DNA of 64,000 nucleotides from Solwaraspora sp. WMMA2056 (GTDB lineage: Bacteria; Actinomycetota; Actinomycetes; Mycobacteriales; Micromonosporaceae): assembly GCF_030345095.1 (NCBI RefSeq), contig NZ_CP128360.1:3596001-3660000 (forward strand), given 5' to 3'. Shown here piece after piece: positions 59,090 through 64,000 of this stretch. A model generated the notes under the pieces. The model ran no database searches. It saw nothing but the letters and a program-made list of their open reading frames with translations, and had not been told where the DNA came from. Position 1 is the first letter of the stretch. Each line of letters starts with the position of its first letter. The position numbers and the translations under genes are program-made.

Positions 59090-59323
59090 ATGCCCGCCAA
59101 ACCGAAGTGGGCGCAGATTGCCGACGGCATCCGCGCCAAGATCGCCACCGGAGAGCTTGCTCCAGGCGACAAGCTGCCATCGACCAGCGAGCTTGGCCGT
59201 GAGCACGGCGTCTCGGCCATCGTCGTCCGACAAGCGATCAACACGCTGAAGGTCGAGCGCGTCGTCGAAGGCGTGCCAGGTGTCGGCGTCTTCGTCGCCG
59301 ACCCGAACGAGACGCAGGTCTGA
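59090..59323 (+). CDS. Short GntR-type regulator, copy 1
   Basis: 77 residues: only the GntR winged helix (WAQIADGIRAKIATGELAPGDKLPSTSELGREHGVSAIVVRQAINTL) and the wing GVPGVGVFVAD, with no ligand domain. That is shorter than YtrA-subfamily proteins (about 120 residues). GGGAG ribosome site. Heads an array of related genes and is divergent from the three-gene unknown operon. How such a minimal protein dimerises or senses a signal is unclear. Confidence 0.85.
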   Translation: MPAKPKWAQIADGIRAKIATGELAPGDKLPSTSELGREHGVSAIVVRQAINTLKVERVVEGVPGVGVFVADPNETQV

Positions 59324-59444
59324 CCCCTGCCGATCGATAAGGTGGGCTTCGGACTCTTGCGGCGGGCGGGGTATTGACGGTGGCCTGATGGGTCGGCCGC
59401 TACCGGCCCAGTTGGCGACAGCGCTGATCAGGGGAGGGCCGGCG

Positions 59445-59684
59445 ATGCCGCCGAGCGCCAAGTGGGTAGGCCTCCTCGTCCACATCCGCAAGCAGATCGA
59501 GACCGGCGAGTTGTCGCCGGGCGCGAAGCTGCCGTCGACGTCGCAGCTCTGCGCCGAACACAACGTGTCGGCGATCGTCGTCCGCAACGCCATGATCGCG
59601 CTCAAGGCCGAAGGCCTGGTCGTCGGTGTACCCGGTGTCGGTGTCTTCGTCGTCGATGCCAACGAGGCCACCGGTGGGTCGTAG
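59445..59684 (+). CDS. Short GntR-type regulator, copy 2
   Basis: 79 residues from ATG 59445 with GGGGAGGG upstream. The sequence (MPPSAKWVGLLVHIRKQIET, LPSTSQLCAEHNVSAIVVRNAMIAL, GVPGVGVFVVDANEA) is close to copy 1 and nearly the same as the decayed copy at 62569. It has one extra Cys. It is a complete minimal wHTH with no effector domain. Belongs to the tandem array. Confidence 0.83.
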   Translation: MPPSAKWVGLLVHIRKQIETGELSPGAKLPSTSQLCAEHNVSAIVVRNAMIALKAEGLVVGVPGVGVFVVDANEATGGS

Positions 59685-59790
59685 CTGGAAGCCTGCGTTT
59701 GTACCTGCGAACGGCTCGACTGGCCGTGGTCTTGGCTACGCTGGGTTCGTTGCCCAACTACTCGGGTGCTTGGAGTGGTGACCTCGGATC

Positions 59791-59911
59791 ATGCCTTACG
59801 CTGTGCCCCTTTGGAAATCGATCCGTGATGACCTCCGTGCGCAGGTCAAAGCAGGGCTGTTGAAGCCGGGCGACCGGATTCCGACCACTCGGAAGCTGAT
59901 GGAGCAACACT
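59791..59911 (+). pseudogene. 5' part of a short GntR gene split by insertion sequences
   Basis: Codes for 40 residues (MPYAVPLWKSIRDDLRAQVK to TTRKLMEQH) and then runs into the IS5-type element, where it stops at once. The missing part is found at 62300-62416: joined at the ACT duplication the two parts make 77 residues, exactly the length of copy 1. The gene was thus intact before insertion. Confidence 0.9.
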
Positions 59912-60796
59912 GAGGCTTATTCAGCAGGGCCTCGATAGCCCACAGTGGACCCCCTGATAAATGAGACGGCCCGCCCTCCCATAGGATGGAGTTACCACAC
60001 AACAACCAAAGAAAAGCGGACCGCCGAACATGTATCATACCACCGGCTTCACGACCGATCAGATCCGCGACCTCTGCGTGCTGGTCCGCGCCGAATGCCG
60101 GAACCTGGGCATGGAACCGTGGCCACCGATCCTCGGCCTCTACCGCGCCCTCGTGGTCACGTTGACCTACATGCGGCGCAACCGCGTCCAAGCGGAGATC
60201 GCCGAGGCGCACGGCGTCTCCCAGTCGACGATCTCACGGGCGGTCACCGCCATCACCCCGGTCCTCGACCGCGTGCTGGCGGGGTTCGTGCCGACCGCCG
60301 ACGAGCTCGACCCGACCGTCCAGTACATCGTCGACGGCACCCTGTTCCCCTGCTGGTCATGGCGCACGGACCGCTGTCTGTACTCCGGCAAGCACAAGAC
60401 CACGGGCATGAGCGTCCAGGTCGCCTGCACCCTCGACGGCGCGCTCGTCTGGGTCTCCGATCCCGTCACCGGCAACCACCACGACTCGTACGCGATCAAC
60501 GACACCGGTGTTCTCGTCAGCCTGAATCCTGCAGGCTGGATCGGCGACAAGGGATACGTCGGCAACGGCATGATCACCCCGTACAAGAAGCCCAAGGGCG
60601 GCGAGCTCACAGAGTGGCAGAAGGAATACAACAGGCAGGTCAACAAGATCCGCTGGGTCGTCGAACAGGTCATCGCGAATCTGAAGACCTGGAGAATCCT
60701 GCACACCGACTACCGCAGACCGCTCGCGACCTTCACAGAAACGATCTCCTGTGCCATCGGGCTGCACTTCTACAGGATCGCCTGTGAATAGACCTC
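59912..60796 (+). mobile_element. IS5-family insertion sequence (885 bp)
   Basis: Ends GAGGCTTATTCA and, inverted, GAGGTCTATTCA, an imperfect terminal repeat. Flanked by ACT on both sides (59909-59911 and 60797-60799), a 3-bp target duplication. Carries one transposase gene and leaves 118 bp before it. It interrupts the third short GntR gene. Confidence 0.85.
60030..60791 (+). CDS. IS5-family DDE transposase
   Basis: 253 residues. A helix-turn-helix (AEIAEAHGVSQSTISRAVTAI) precedes the DDE_Tnp_4 type catalytic core: first Asp in QYIVDGTLFP, second in VWVSDPVTGNHHDSYAIND, Glu in RWVVEQVIANLKTWRIL. Complete and apparently active. The stop codon is 5 bp from the element end. Confidence 0.9.
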   Translation: MYHTTGFTTDQIRDLCVLVRAECRNLGMEPWPPILGLYRALVVTLTYMRRNRVQAEIAEAHGVSQSTISRAVTAITPVLDRVLAGFVPTADELDPTVQYIVDGTLFPCWSWRTDRCLYSGKHKTTGMSVQVACTLDGALVWVSDPVTGNHHDSYAINDTGVLVSLNPAGWIGDKGYVGNGMITPYKKPKGGELTEWQKEYNRQVNKIRWVVEQVIANLKTWRILHTDYRRPLATFTETISCAIGLHFYRIACE

Positions 60797-60803
60797 ACTC
60801 GAC

Positions 60804-62299
60804 GTAACTAATCAGGTCGGCCGGTTCGGGCTGGTTTGATCTTGGTGGGGTTGTTGGGCAGGATGTCCGGGTGCCTGACGTGCCATCCATCGTGGAGCTG
60901 CTGGAGCGGCTCGTGGCGTTGGAGGAGGCCGTCGCGCAGCGGGATGCGCGGATCGCGGTTTTGGAGGCGGAGAACGCCGAGTTGCGGCGTCGGTTGGGTC
61001 AGACGCCGAGGAACTCGAATCTCCCGCCGTCGGCGCAGGGGTTGGACAAGCCCGCGCCGAGGTCGTTGCGGGGCCGGTCGGGACGCCGCGTGGGTGGTCA
61101 GGACGGTCACCGGGGGCAGACGTTGCGGCAGGTCGACGTGCCGGACGAGACGGTTGTCCATGAGCCGGTGGTGTGTGGCGGGTGTGGTGACGGCCTGGCT
61201 GGTGCGGCGGTTGTCGGGGTGACCCGGCGTCAGGTGTTCGAGATTCCGCTGGTCGCTGCCCGGGTGGTCGAGCATCGTCTCGTGGCGCGGCGGTGTAGGT
61301 GTGCGGCGGTGACCTGTGCGGACGCGCCCGTCGGGGTGGACGCGCCGGTGCAGTACGGTCCCCGGCTGGCGGCGGTCGTGGTGTATCTGCTGGTCGCGCA
61401 GTTCGGGGCGCAGAAACGTGTCGCGCGGGCGGTGGGTGATCTGTTCGGGGTGCCGGTCTCGCAGGGCAGTGTCGCGGCGTTGACCGCCCGGGCCGCGCGT
61501 CGTCTGGAGGGTGACTTCCTGGCCGTGGTGCGCCGGGCGTTGGCCCGGGCGCGGTTGGCGCACTTCGACGAGACCGGGTTCCGGGTCGCCGGTCGTCTGC
61601 ACTGGGTCCATTCGGTGTCGACCGACAGGTTGAGCCTGCTGTACGTGCACCGCCGTCGTGGCCGGGAGGCGATGGACGGCGGTGGGGTGCTGCCGTCGTT
61701 CGCCGGGGTCGCCGTGCATGACGCGTGGGCGCCGTATGACTGCTACCCGGGCGTGACGCATGCGTTGTGCTGCGCGCATCTGCTGCGTGAGTTGGTGGCC
61801 GCTGGTGAGCTCGATCCGGACGCGACCTGGGCGGGGCAGGCGATCCGGGCGTTGCTGGACCTCAAGACCGCAGCCGAGGCCGCTCGCGCCGCCGGCCGGG
61901 ACCGGGTGCCGGTGGACGTCCTCGCCGTCGGGGTCGCCTCGTTCCGCCACGCCGCGCTGGTCGGGGTCAAGCAGCACGCCGGTGCGCGGGCCCCGGTCGG
62001 GCGCAAACTCCACGCCCTGGCCCGGCGGATGCACGAGCGTATCGATGACTACCTGCGGTTCGCGTACGACCTGCGATGTCCGTTCGACAACAACGCGGCC
62101 GAGCGTGAGGTCCGCATGGTCAAGGTCCGACAGAAGATATCCGGCGCCATGCGCACCTTCACCGGCGCGGAACACTTCTGCCATCTGCGGTCCTACCTCG
62201 CCACCGCGGGCAAACACGGCGTCAATCTACTTGACGCACTCACGCAACTGACCTCCGGCCGACCATGGATCCCCGCCACCAACTGACCTGATTAGTTAC
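60804..62299 (+). mobile_element. IS66-family insertion sequence (1496 bp)
   Basis: 15-bp perfect terminal inverted repeats GTAACTAATCAGGTC (60804-60818 and 62285-62299) and an 8-bp target duplication CACTCGAC (60796-60803 and 62300-62307), the size typical of IS66. It contains only the large transposase gene, with no tnpA or tnpB. It lies directly next to the IS5-type element in the same split gene. Confidence 0.9.
60871..62286 (+). CDS. IS66-family transposase (TnpC type)
   Basis: 471 residues from a GTG start. A leucine-zipper-like N-terminus (LLERLVALEEAVAQRDARIAVLEAENAELRRRL), RNSNLPPSAQG, a zinc-finger region (CGGCGDG, RCRCAAVTCAD) and the DDE core (RLAHFDETGFRV, GVAVHDAWAPYD, NNAAEREVRMVKVRQKISG). 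Complete. Its stop overlaps the right terminal repeat by 2 bp. Lone TnpC elements form the ISBst12-like branch of IS66. Confidence 0.92.
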   Translation: MPDVPSIVELLERLVALEEAVAQRDARIAVLEAENAELRRRLGQTPRNSNLPPSAQGLDKPAPRSLRGRSGRRVGGQDGHRGQTLRQVDVPDETVVHEPVVCGGCGDGLAGAAVVGVTRRQVFEIPLVAARVVEHRLVARRCRCAAVTCADAPVGVDAPVQYGPRLAAVVVYLLVAQFGAQKRVARAVGDLFGVPVSQGSVAALTARAARRLEGDFLAVVRRALARARLAHFDETGFRVAGRLHWVHSVSTDRLSLLYVHRRRGREAMDGGGVLPSFAGVAVHDAWAPYDCYPGVTHALCCAHLLRELVAAGELDPDATWAGQAIRALLDLKTAAEAARAAGRDRVPVDVLAVGVASFRHAALVGVKQHAGARAPVGRKLHALARRMHERIDDYLRFAYDLRCPFDNNAAEREVRMVKVRQKISGAMRTFTGAEHFCHLRSYLATAGKHGVNLLDALTQLTSGRPWIPATN

Positions 62300-62416
62300 C
62301 ACTCGACGACCTCGGCAACCGTACGCCGTGCCGTCGACTCGATGATCGAGTCCGGCGAACTCGTCGGCAGGCAGGGCCTCGGCGTGTTCGTCGCCGATCG
62401 ATCGGACAACGCCTGA
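62300..62416 (+). pseudogene. 3' part of the short GntR gene split by insertion sequences
   Basis: Encodes HSTTSATVRRAVDSM to GLGVFVADRSDNA, ending TGA: the recognition-helix region and wing of the GntR fold, continuous with the fragment at 59791. It has no start of its own. Its first bases are the right copy of the IS66 target duplication. Confidence 0.88.
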
Positions 62417-62568
62417 TCTTTGGCCTGCTATAAGCCTGTCGCTCCTGCTCCTGCCGAGGAAGGAGCGCGCACCCTGGGTCGGCCAAGTCCTCGACGCGGC
62501 CCGACACCAGGTTGTGCGTCCGGTACCTGAGCCGAGTTGGCGACAGTGCTGATTAGGGGGTATCGACG

Positions 62569-62818
62569 GTGCCGCCGAGCGCCAGGTGGGTCGAGCTTGT
62601 CGCCCACACCCGCAGGCTGATTGCGCCCGGCGACCTGCCGCCGAGCGCCGAGCTGCCGTCGACGTCGCAGCTCTGCCCTGAGCACAACGTATCGGCGAAC
62701 GTCGTCCGCAACGCCATGATCGCGCTCAGGCCGGGGGCCTGGTCGTCGGCGTGCCCGGCGTTGTGTCTTCGTCACCGACCGGAACGAACGCTTCCTGCGT
62801 GGAGGTCTGCCACGAGTG
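62569..62818 (+). pseudogene. Frameshifted duplicate of short GntR copy 2
   Basis: From GTG 62569 the first about 53 residues (MPPSARWVELVAHTRRLI, LPSTSQLCPEHNVSANVVRNAMIAL) follow copy 2, then the frame is lost. Nucleotide comparison shows one missing base after CTCA (near 62730) and another missing near CCCGGCGTT (about 62760), which partly restore the family sequence in other frames. Upstream sequence GTTGGCGACAG-GCTGAT-AGGGG is shared with copy 2, so the promoter was duplicated too. Confidence 0.85.
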
Positions 62819-62847
62819 AGCCGCCCGCTCCGAAAGCCGGTAGGCGA

Positions 62848-62860
62848 TAGTCTTCAGTGC
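62848..62860 (+). promoter_or_regulatory. -10 element for a leaderless HEAT-like transcript
   Basis: TAGTCT followed by 7 nt and the GTG start at 62861. No ribosome site is present between them. Confidence 0.4.
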
Positions 62861-63199
62861 GTGACGGCTCGATTTCGCCAGGCGATGCGGTTGATGCGTC
62901 GTCGCGATCCGCAGGCTCGGGAAGAGGGCTTCCACCTTCTCCTGCAGCACGCTGCTGAGCATGTCGACGAGTTGATCGCTGAGTTTGTGGCCGAGCGGGA
63001 TGATCATGGTTTGCGATGTTGGCTCTTGGAGCTTATAGGGCAGGCGCGATCGGCGAAGGCGTTGCCGATCCTGGTGGATCAGATGTATGGGGATGATCCT
63101 TCGCTGCGCTCCTGGGCGGTTCGCGGACTAGAGTCCTTGGATACCAAGGAAGCACGCCAGGAGCTCTGGAAAGCGCGCGCTAACGGACGTTTCAACTGA
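62861..63199 (+). CDS. Small HEAT-repeat-like protein
   Basis: 112 residues from GTG 62861. All-helical with two or three HEAT/PBS-lyase-like repeats: FHLLLQHAAEHVDELIAEFVAE, CWLLELIGQARSAKALPILVDQMYG and LRSWAVRGLESLDTKEARQELWK. Such small solenoids bind other proteins and, in actinobacteria and elsewhere, include proteins next to toxins (immunity proteins). No toxin is visible in the window. Lower GC than the core genes. Confidence 0.75.
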   Translation: MTARFRQAMRLMRRRDPQAREEGFHLLLQHAAEHVDELIAEFVAERDDHGLRCWLLELIGQARSAKALPILVDQMYGDDPSLRSWAVRGLESLDTKEARQELWKARANGRFN

Positions 63200-63254
63200 G
63201 ATGTGTAGCAGGTTGGTCAGCGCATCCGCATCTGCTGTCCGTGCATAGCTCGGA

Positions 63255-63280
63255 CGATACTCAAACGGGGTTGAGTATCG
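63255..63280. terminator. Hairpin between convergent genes at the right edge
   Basis: CGATACTCAA pairs perfectly with TTGAGTATCG over a 6-nt loop, between the HEAT-like gene and the convergent unknown gene. Confidence 0.65.
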
Positions 63281-63295
63281 ATGCGGCGGCAACCA

Positions 63296-63985
63296 TCATC
63301 GACGGCCGCGCCACGCGGGCCACCTCCAATTGATTCCGGGTGGTGTCGAGTTTTCGAGCAGCGGTTTGAGCTCGCGGTACCGATGAAACCGGACGCCAAG
63401 ATCGGGTTCTGAATCGGGGTCAGAGCGAAGGTCGGATTCACCGACAATCGGCACGACGAAGTAAATGCCATTGTCGGCTAGTGCCTCAATGAGCGATCTG
63501 AGGTAGAAATATCCCGGCATTAGACACGCGACGTGTCCCTCTTGTGTTGCAATGCCAATCAATTCGTCATAGTCGTAGACTGGATCGTAGGGTGCTGGGT
63601 AGAGGGCGCCGACGTGCCAGGGAATTCCTGCTTCGTCATGGCCGGGAGGCGTCCTTGCGAGAAGTCGATTGATACGTTGTCGATTGTGACATGCACCCAT
63701 CACTGGCGCATTGGGAGCGGCGAGGAGGGATGGCAGTGTGAAGAGTGAGTCAGTGGATCGGCCAGATCGGATAACCGTCGCCGCGACCGACCACGAGATG
63801 GGTGGAGCGGCTACTCGTTGGAAGCGGGCGTGGGGCGGATCGACTGCTCGATACAGCGCTGGCTCGGTCATGGGGTATTGATCGCCTTCTAGGAAGACCG
63901 CAGTGTGCGGCGGATCGCCCCCCTCTACATACTCGGCAATGATTTCGATTGGCACTTGCGCCTCGGAGTCGGCCAAAAGGCCCAT
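63296..63985 (-). CDS. Unknown protein, possibly incomplete at its 5' end
   Basis: 229 residues from ATG 63985; the frame stays open to the window edge (15 bp further), so the true start may lie outside. No membrane helix or signal peptide. Aromatic and acidic throughout, with PVYDYDELIGIATQEGHVAC, LMPGYFYLRSLIEALADNGIYF and a C-terminal FHRYRELKPLLE. I recognise no family. GC content is clearly lower than in the rest of the window, as for the convergent HEAT-like gene, which suggests acquired DNA. Confidence 0.65.
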   Translation of the reverse strand: MGLLADSEAQVPIEIIAEYVEGGDPPHTAVFLEGDQYPMTEPALYRAVDPPHARFQRVAAPPISWSVAATVIRSGRSTDSLFTLPSLLAAPNAPVMGACHNRQRINRLLARTPPGHDEAGIPWHVGALYPAPYDPVYDYDELIGIATQEGHVACLMPGYFYLRSLIEALADNGIYFVVPIVGESDLRSDPDSEPDLGVRFHRYRELKPLLENSTPPGINWRWPAWRGRR

Positions 63986-64000
63986 CGCCCTAACGATTTC

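Follow-up and report, generated by a model that had tools for sequence, protein, structure and literature searches.

A soil bacterium of the Micromonospora group carries four short GntR genes in tandem, and one of these has almost certainly been inactivated by two independent and ordinary transpositions at the same place. This gene lies in a window of 64,000 nucleotides, positions 3596001-3660000 of a genome that consists of one contig of 7.01 Mb. In the mechanism we propose, an IS5-type element would have inserted at ACT with a 3-bp duplication of its target, and an IS66-type element, which encodes one transposase, would have inserted at CACTCGAC with an 8-bp duplication. The first arrival would have killed the gene by creating an immediate stop, and the second would have landed in a gene that was already dead.

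Direct inspection of the sequence places the split gene, which has 77 codons and a single domain, at 59791-62416, with all of its parts on the plus strand. Codons 1-40 and the first base of codon 41 (59791-59911) form a 121-base start that ends in the left ACT (59909-59911). There follow the IS5-type element (59912-60796, 885 bp), the right ACT (60797-60799), four further bases, the IS66-type element (60804-62299, 1496 bp), a copy of CACTCGAC (62300-62307) and the remainder of the gene with its stop codon (62308-62416), which aligns to uninterrupted orthologs. The two elements have the same orientation and are 7 bases apart. As the original prediction had claimed, both target duplications are readable, and the coordinates, element ends and repeats of ACT and CACTCGAC were all verified. 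The left copy of CACTCGAC occupies 60796-60803, so that its first base, the C at 60796, also closes the IS5-type element, the overlap that had been predicted. When a script excised the two elements together with a single copy of each duplication, the flanks joined into 234 bp carrying a single frame of 77 codons and a stop; this is the predicted frame, equal in length to the neighboring GntR copy 1 (77 aa), copy 2 having 79 aa. The 5' piece, being half a gene, scores 25.1 bits against Pfam GntR PF00392 over profile positions 3-33 of 64, just below the 27-bit cut-off. RNA family and tRNA scans over the 64-kb window gave no matches.

The order of the two insertions is masked by a coincidence. 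A C precedes ACT in the gene and a C also ends the IS5-type element, so the sequence reads the same whichever element came first; simulated insertion of the two, in one order and then in the other, reproduced the window exactly, in agreement with what had been claimed. The effect on the gene is the same either way. An IS5-type insertion alone turns codon 41 into TGA, and an IS66-type insertion alone turns codon 43 into TAA. Both stops fall between the second helix and the recognition helix and wing of the GntR fold, which we take to be lost as a result. Since either insertion stops the frame before the recognition helix, the split gene is most likely a null allele, and a recent one, and its truncated product should not bind DNA. 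Recency is suggested by the near-identical IS5-type copies and the intact element ends. Whichever element arrived first had already killed the gene, so the second insertion was probably neutral, came without further cost and changed little. In a comparison of one genome per species, none carried one insertion without the other.

The empty site is still present in relatives. The left flank was searched for in 61 genomes, with the best eight candidates per genome scored, and the reconstructed empty site was then aligned to the loci. Three of the six other genomes of the same genus have an uninterrupted site, at 89-97% DNA identity, and none of the three shows the same split parts without insertion sequences. 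The match to the reconstructed site is 495 of 511 bases in G005, 299 of 311 in G002, where the alignment ends just short of the gene end, and 210 of 237 in G003, with no insertion in any of them, so the reconstructed frame is no product of chance. This copy of the gene was not matched among the best eight candidates in G001, G004 or G006. A protein scan added orthologs that continue across the site in Micromonospora okii, Micromonospora sp. ATA32 and M. mirobrigensis; among named genomes, the split gene has its closest relatives in those of Micromonospora. The scan covered the best 80 of 112 relatives, and orthologs were taken from L040 to L044, the other 75 being at most 49% identical. Six full-length orthologs were counted (G002, G003, G005, L040, L041 and L042). 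The HM5-17 homolog (L043), uninterrupted from residue 3 onward with an unclear start codon, was not counted, nor was that of KC723 (L044), which is missing its 5' part and breaks near codon 22 and not at codon 41. The orthologs are under purifying selection: dN/dS ranges from 0.038 to 0.269 over 21 pairs among seven sequences (the joined frame of our genome and the six orthologs), calculated by NG86 over the first 72 codons, with several pairs having dS above 1 and correspondingly rough ratios. Such low values indicate that the gene was real and constrained before it was broken.

The split gene belongs to an array of four tandem short GntR copies, all on the plus strand. Copies 1 (59090-59323) and 2 (59445-59684) are intact and score 65.8 and 60.5 bits against PF00392. 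The fourth copy (62564-62773) is decayed, its second half being frameshifted; over about 212 bp its DNA is 84% identical to that of copy 2. G005 has a decayed counterpart, with an aligned stretch that is shorter by 7 bases. Full-size GntR regulators typically carry a C-terminal effector-binding domain. That domain is absent here, the frame ending after 77 codons and the neighbors at 77 and 79 aa, and in this the gene is like the single-domain GntR proteins of about 77 aa, made up of the whole PF00392 DNA-binding domain, in Micromonosporaceae and other bacteria. The literature matches listed held no titles on the function of such short copies. Exchange between paralogs is suggested by the sequence of the G002 ortholog (L134:8392-8628), whose last codons are unlike those of our genome, G003 and G005 and similar to other GntR copies over 35-45 bases. 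Directly downstream of the array is a small HEAT-repeat ORF (62816-63199), with 28.4 bits to PF13646 (cut-off 27.7) and 31.8 bits to PADLOC HEAT-ARM.

The IS5-type element was delimited by its ends, its 3-bp duplication and its other copies in the genome. Its ends, GAGGCTTATTCA and GAGGTCTATTCA, are short imperfect inverted repeats with ACT on both sides. Its transposase (60030-60791, plus strand, 253 aa) contains DDE_Tnp_4 and HTH_Tnp_4 and scores 99.9 bits against PF13359, over the cut-off. The original prediction had proposed a count of further copies of both elements. For this one, the genome holds five copies in all, each identical or with one mismatch, and a domain search in which all seven candidates were scored returned the same five and one unrelated gene. 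All five are flanked by 3-bp duplications (ACT, ATA, TTT, CTT and TAC). Relatives of the element occur at 97% identity in G006, 90% in G002 and 87% in G005, and 3-bp duplications flank all seven copies inspected there. The element combines a constant target duplication length with inverted ends, and we take it to be a resident of the genome that was apparently active recently. Subgroups of the IS5 family include IS427, IS903, IS1031 and ISL2. With the family's single-transposase elements of about 0.85-0.9 kb the element shares DDE_Tnp_4, HTH_Tnp_4 and short imperfect inverted ends. Unlike them, it has a 3-bp duplication without a clear consensus, and its transposase stays below the cut-offs of the NCBIfam IS5 models (79.1 of 140 and 31.9 of 110 bits). 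For the IS5 elements of Paracoccus, the tabulated rows available give duplications of 2, 4, 6 or 9 bp (PMC3281130).

The IS66-type element is bounded by 15-bp perfectly matched inverted ends, GTAACTAATCAGGTC, with CACTCGAC at both flanks. A 471-aa ORF (60871-62286, plus strand) fills most of its 1496 bp, and the accessory genes of larger IS66 elements are absent; the encoded transposase scores 270.1 bits against NF033517 (cut-off 180) and 138.5 bits against PF03050 (cut-off 23.1). The same copy count found this element once in the genome at 100%, the next best match being at 64%. Seven other near-full-length copies stand at that 64%, six of them with perfect 8-bp duplications. At L140:1463-2983 an IS66-type copy sits inside an rve-type element, and its duplication matches at 7 of 8 bases. 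For the element in the split gene, the six other genomes of the genus gave no match at E <= 1e-100. Among 200 genomes of the family, our own included, matches at 79-81% occur in three genomes of other genera. Of four relatives at about 80%, two, both in G144, a genome of another genus, carry 8-bp duplications (CCGGAAAG and AAATCGAC); the duplication count excludes the other two (L121 and L122), which lacked a match to both ends. In a plasmid collection, the best match among those listed has 54% protein identity. The element is probably an unnamed one, and it would be a newcomer to this genome. Because it has one transposase gene and an 8-bp duplication, as in the definition of the ISBst12 group given in the available part of PMC12898284, it resembles the members of that group. 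One of these, ISDge4 of Deinococcus geothermalis, is described in the same part with a transposase of 449 aa and the ends GTGACTACTCAGCA and GTAACTGCTCAGCA (PMC12898284). These ends are similar in form to GTAACTAATCAGGTC, the difference from ISDge4 as described there being that the ends of the element here match perfectly over 15 bp.

The same orientation and the short spacing of the two elements might suggest that they arrived together as a single composite unit. We give this almost no credence. Each element has a duplication and a duplication length of its own, the four other IS5-type copies have no IS66 end within the 25 bases inspected on each side, and the IS66-type element lacks a second close copy in the genome. 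A composite transposon was rejected on these separate duplications and solitary copies, which point to two separate transposition events and not to the arrival of a joined pair.

Two elements in one gene may also mean that the sequence or structure of the gene attracts transposases, so that the paired insertions would be no coincidence. The original prediction had gone this far, calling the site a hot spot inside a regulator gene. Its split gene, two duplications, restored frame and undecidable order all stand; the hot spot at the level of the gene does not, since the site is uninterrupted in all six other full-length orthologs and none of them carries an insertion. The two different elements did hit overlapping target bases, and among the three 8-bp duplications known for this IS66 group, CACTCGAC and AAATCGAC agree in their last five bases, CCGGAAAG differing. 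Against this, no consensus is apparent by eye in the twelve 3-bp duplications that flank IS5-type copies or in the 8-bp duplications of the seven 64% IS66-type copies. Beyond the gene itself, an independent IS5-type copy lies in the interval after the GntR array in G002, and G006 has what may be an IS66-like remnant there, although its score is below the cut-off and a tblastn search was negative. Close neighbors among insertion sequences are, however, common at many places in the genome, and another IS66-type copy is nested in an rve-type element. We consider a true hot spot very improbable.

This clustering can be put in numbers. Among 47 transposase matches there are 11 close neighbor pairs, this pair included, with midpoints less than 3.5 kb apart; 5000 simulations with uniform placement gave a mean of 1.06 pairs and a maximum of 5. 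The 47 matches combine the results of three Pfam searches with those of an IS66 DNA search, other IS families being uncounted. An IS5-type copy matched by two families contributed a single count, and three matches to DDE_Tnp_1 are included although they score below the curated cut-off; two short IS66 matches and one of the halves of a split DDE_Tnp_1 gene are excluded. Up to 40 candidates were scored per genome for IS copies, 8 for the left flank and 2 for IS relatives, so that copy numbers in the relatives are lower bounds. Insertion sequences thus cluster across the genome, which lends some support to a hot spot at this coarser scale only. That IS elements accumulate beside existing ones, and that IS-in-IS clusters occur, is reported in the available part of PMC9208149. 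Our genome shows the same clustering as the hotspots described there; unlike them, the present case consists of two elements in one gene, with no recurrence in six orthologs. The available part of PMC4072520 handles nested insertions solely as an annotation problem. Our literature search returned nothing on the Micromonospora GntR family together with an insertion sequence, nothing on nested IS in IS islands, and, among the matches listed, no title on this locus.

In general, the insertion of an element into a regulator can be adaptive. The disruption of this gene may likewise have been selected, for example through altered expression of a neighbor or a promoter supplied by one of the elements, and regulator genes are among the functions overrepresented beside IS elements in the available part of PMC9208149. 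We regard selection as very improbable here, given that two intact paralogs adjoin the split gene and that its immediate downstream neighbors are a GntR copy in decay and a small HEAT-repeat ORF.

The array borders an interval that varies among strains (59330-64000 in the window, with the right edge at about 64394, beyond the window end; seen at L133, L134, L136, L138 and L139). Parts of the left block, 57.3-59.3 kb, match at all seven loci from six genomes of the genus; for the right block (64.4 kb onward) the number is five of the seven. The neighbors at this right edge are an HNH-type gene and small genes without a known function. In G004, parts of the left block, with a short GntR gene, are present at two places in the genome (L137 and L139).

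The content of the interval differs in most of the same-genus loci compared. In G005 it is collinear with our genome at 94%, minus the two IS elements. In G002 it holds an IS5-type copy of its own (L134:9919-10803, 90% identity) with an ACA duplication and in the opposite orientation. In G004 it contains a gene for an ApeA-like protein (L139:6491-8164, minus strand) with PF18862 and HEPN PF18739 and 198 bits to PADLOC PDC-S58, a candidate anti-phage gene. The possible remnant in G006 is an ORF (L138:7597-8037, plus strand) within about 0.1-0.5 kb of GntR copy 1, with a weak DUF6444 match (24.2 bits, cut-off 27); the transposase of the IS66-type element did not find it by tblastn at E 1e-3, and its identity as an IS66 remnant is a weak possibility. 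In this small sample of loci, the interval seems to tolerate insertions. The array might be the left boundary of an interval that varies throughout the genus and gathers insertion sequences and, in one strain, an ApeA-like candidate defense gene, with the short GntR copies turning over with this cargo or controlling it and the double insertion being one sign of the turnover. We consider this broader reading unlikely.

Two ordinary transpositions into one short GntR gene leave our understanding of transposition unchanged. The locus adds to the known insertion sequences of Micromonospora one IS66-type element, which is ISBst12-like, and one IS5-type element, apparently recently active. As a worked example it is clean: target duplications that overlap, an insertion order that is undecidable and an ancestral site that was empty are all legible, with confirmation from relatives. 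The event is an ordinary one; the evidence for it is unusually clean and well documented.
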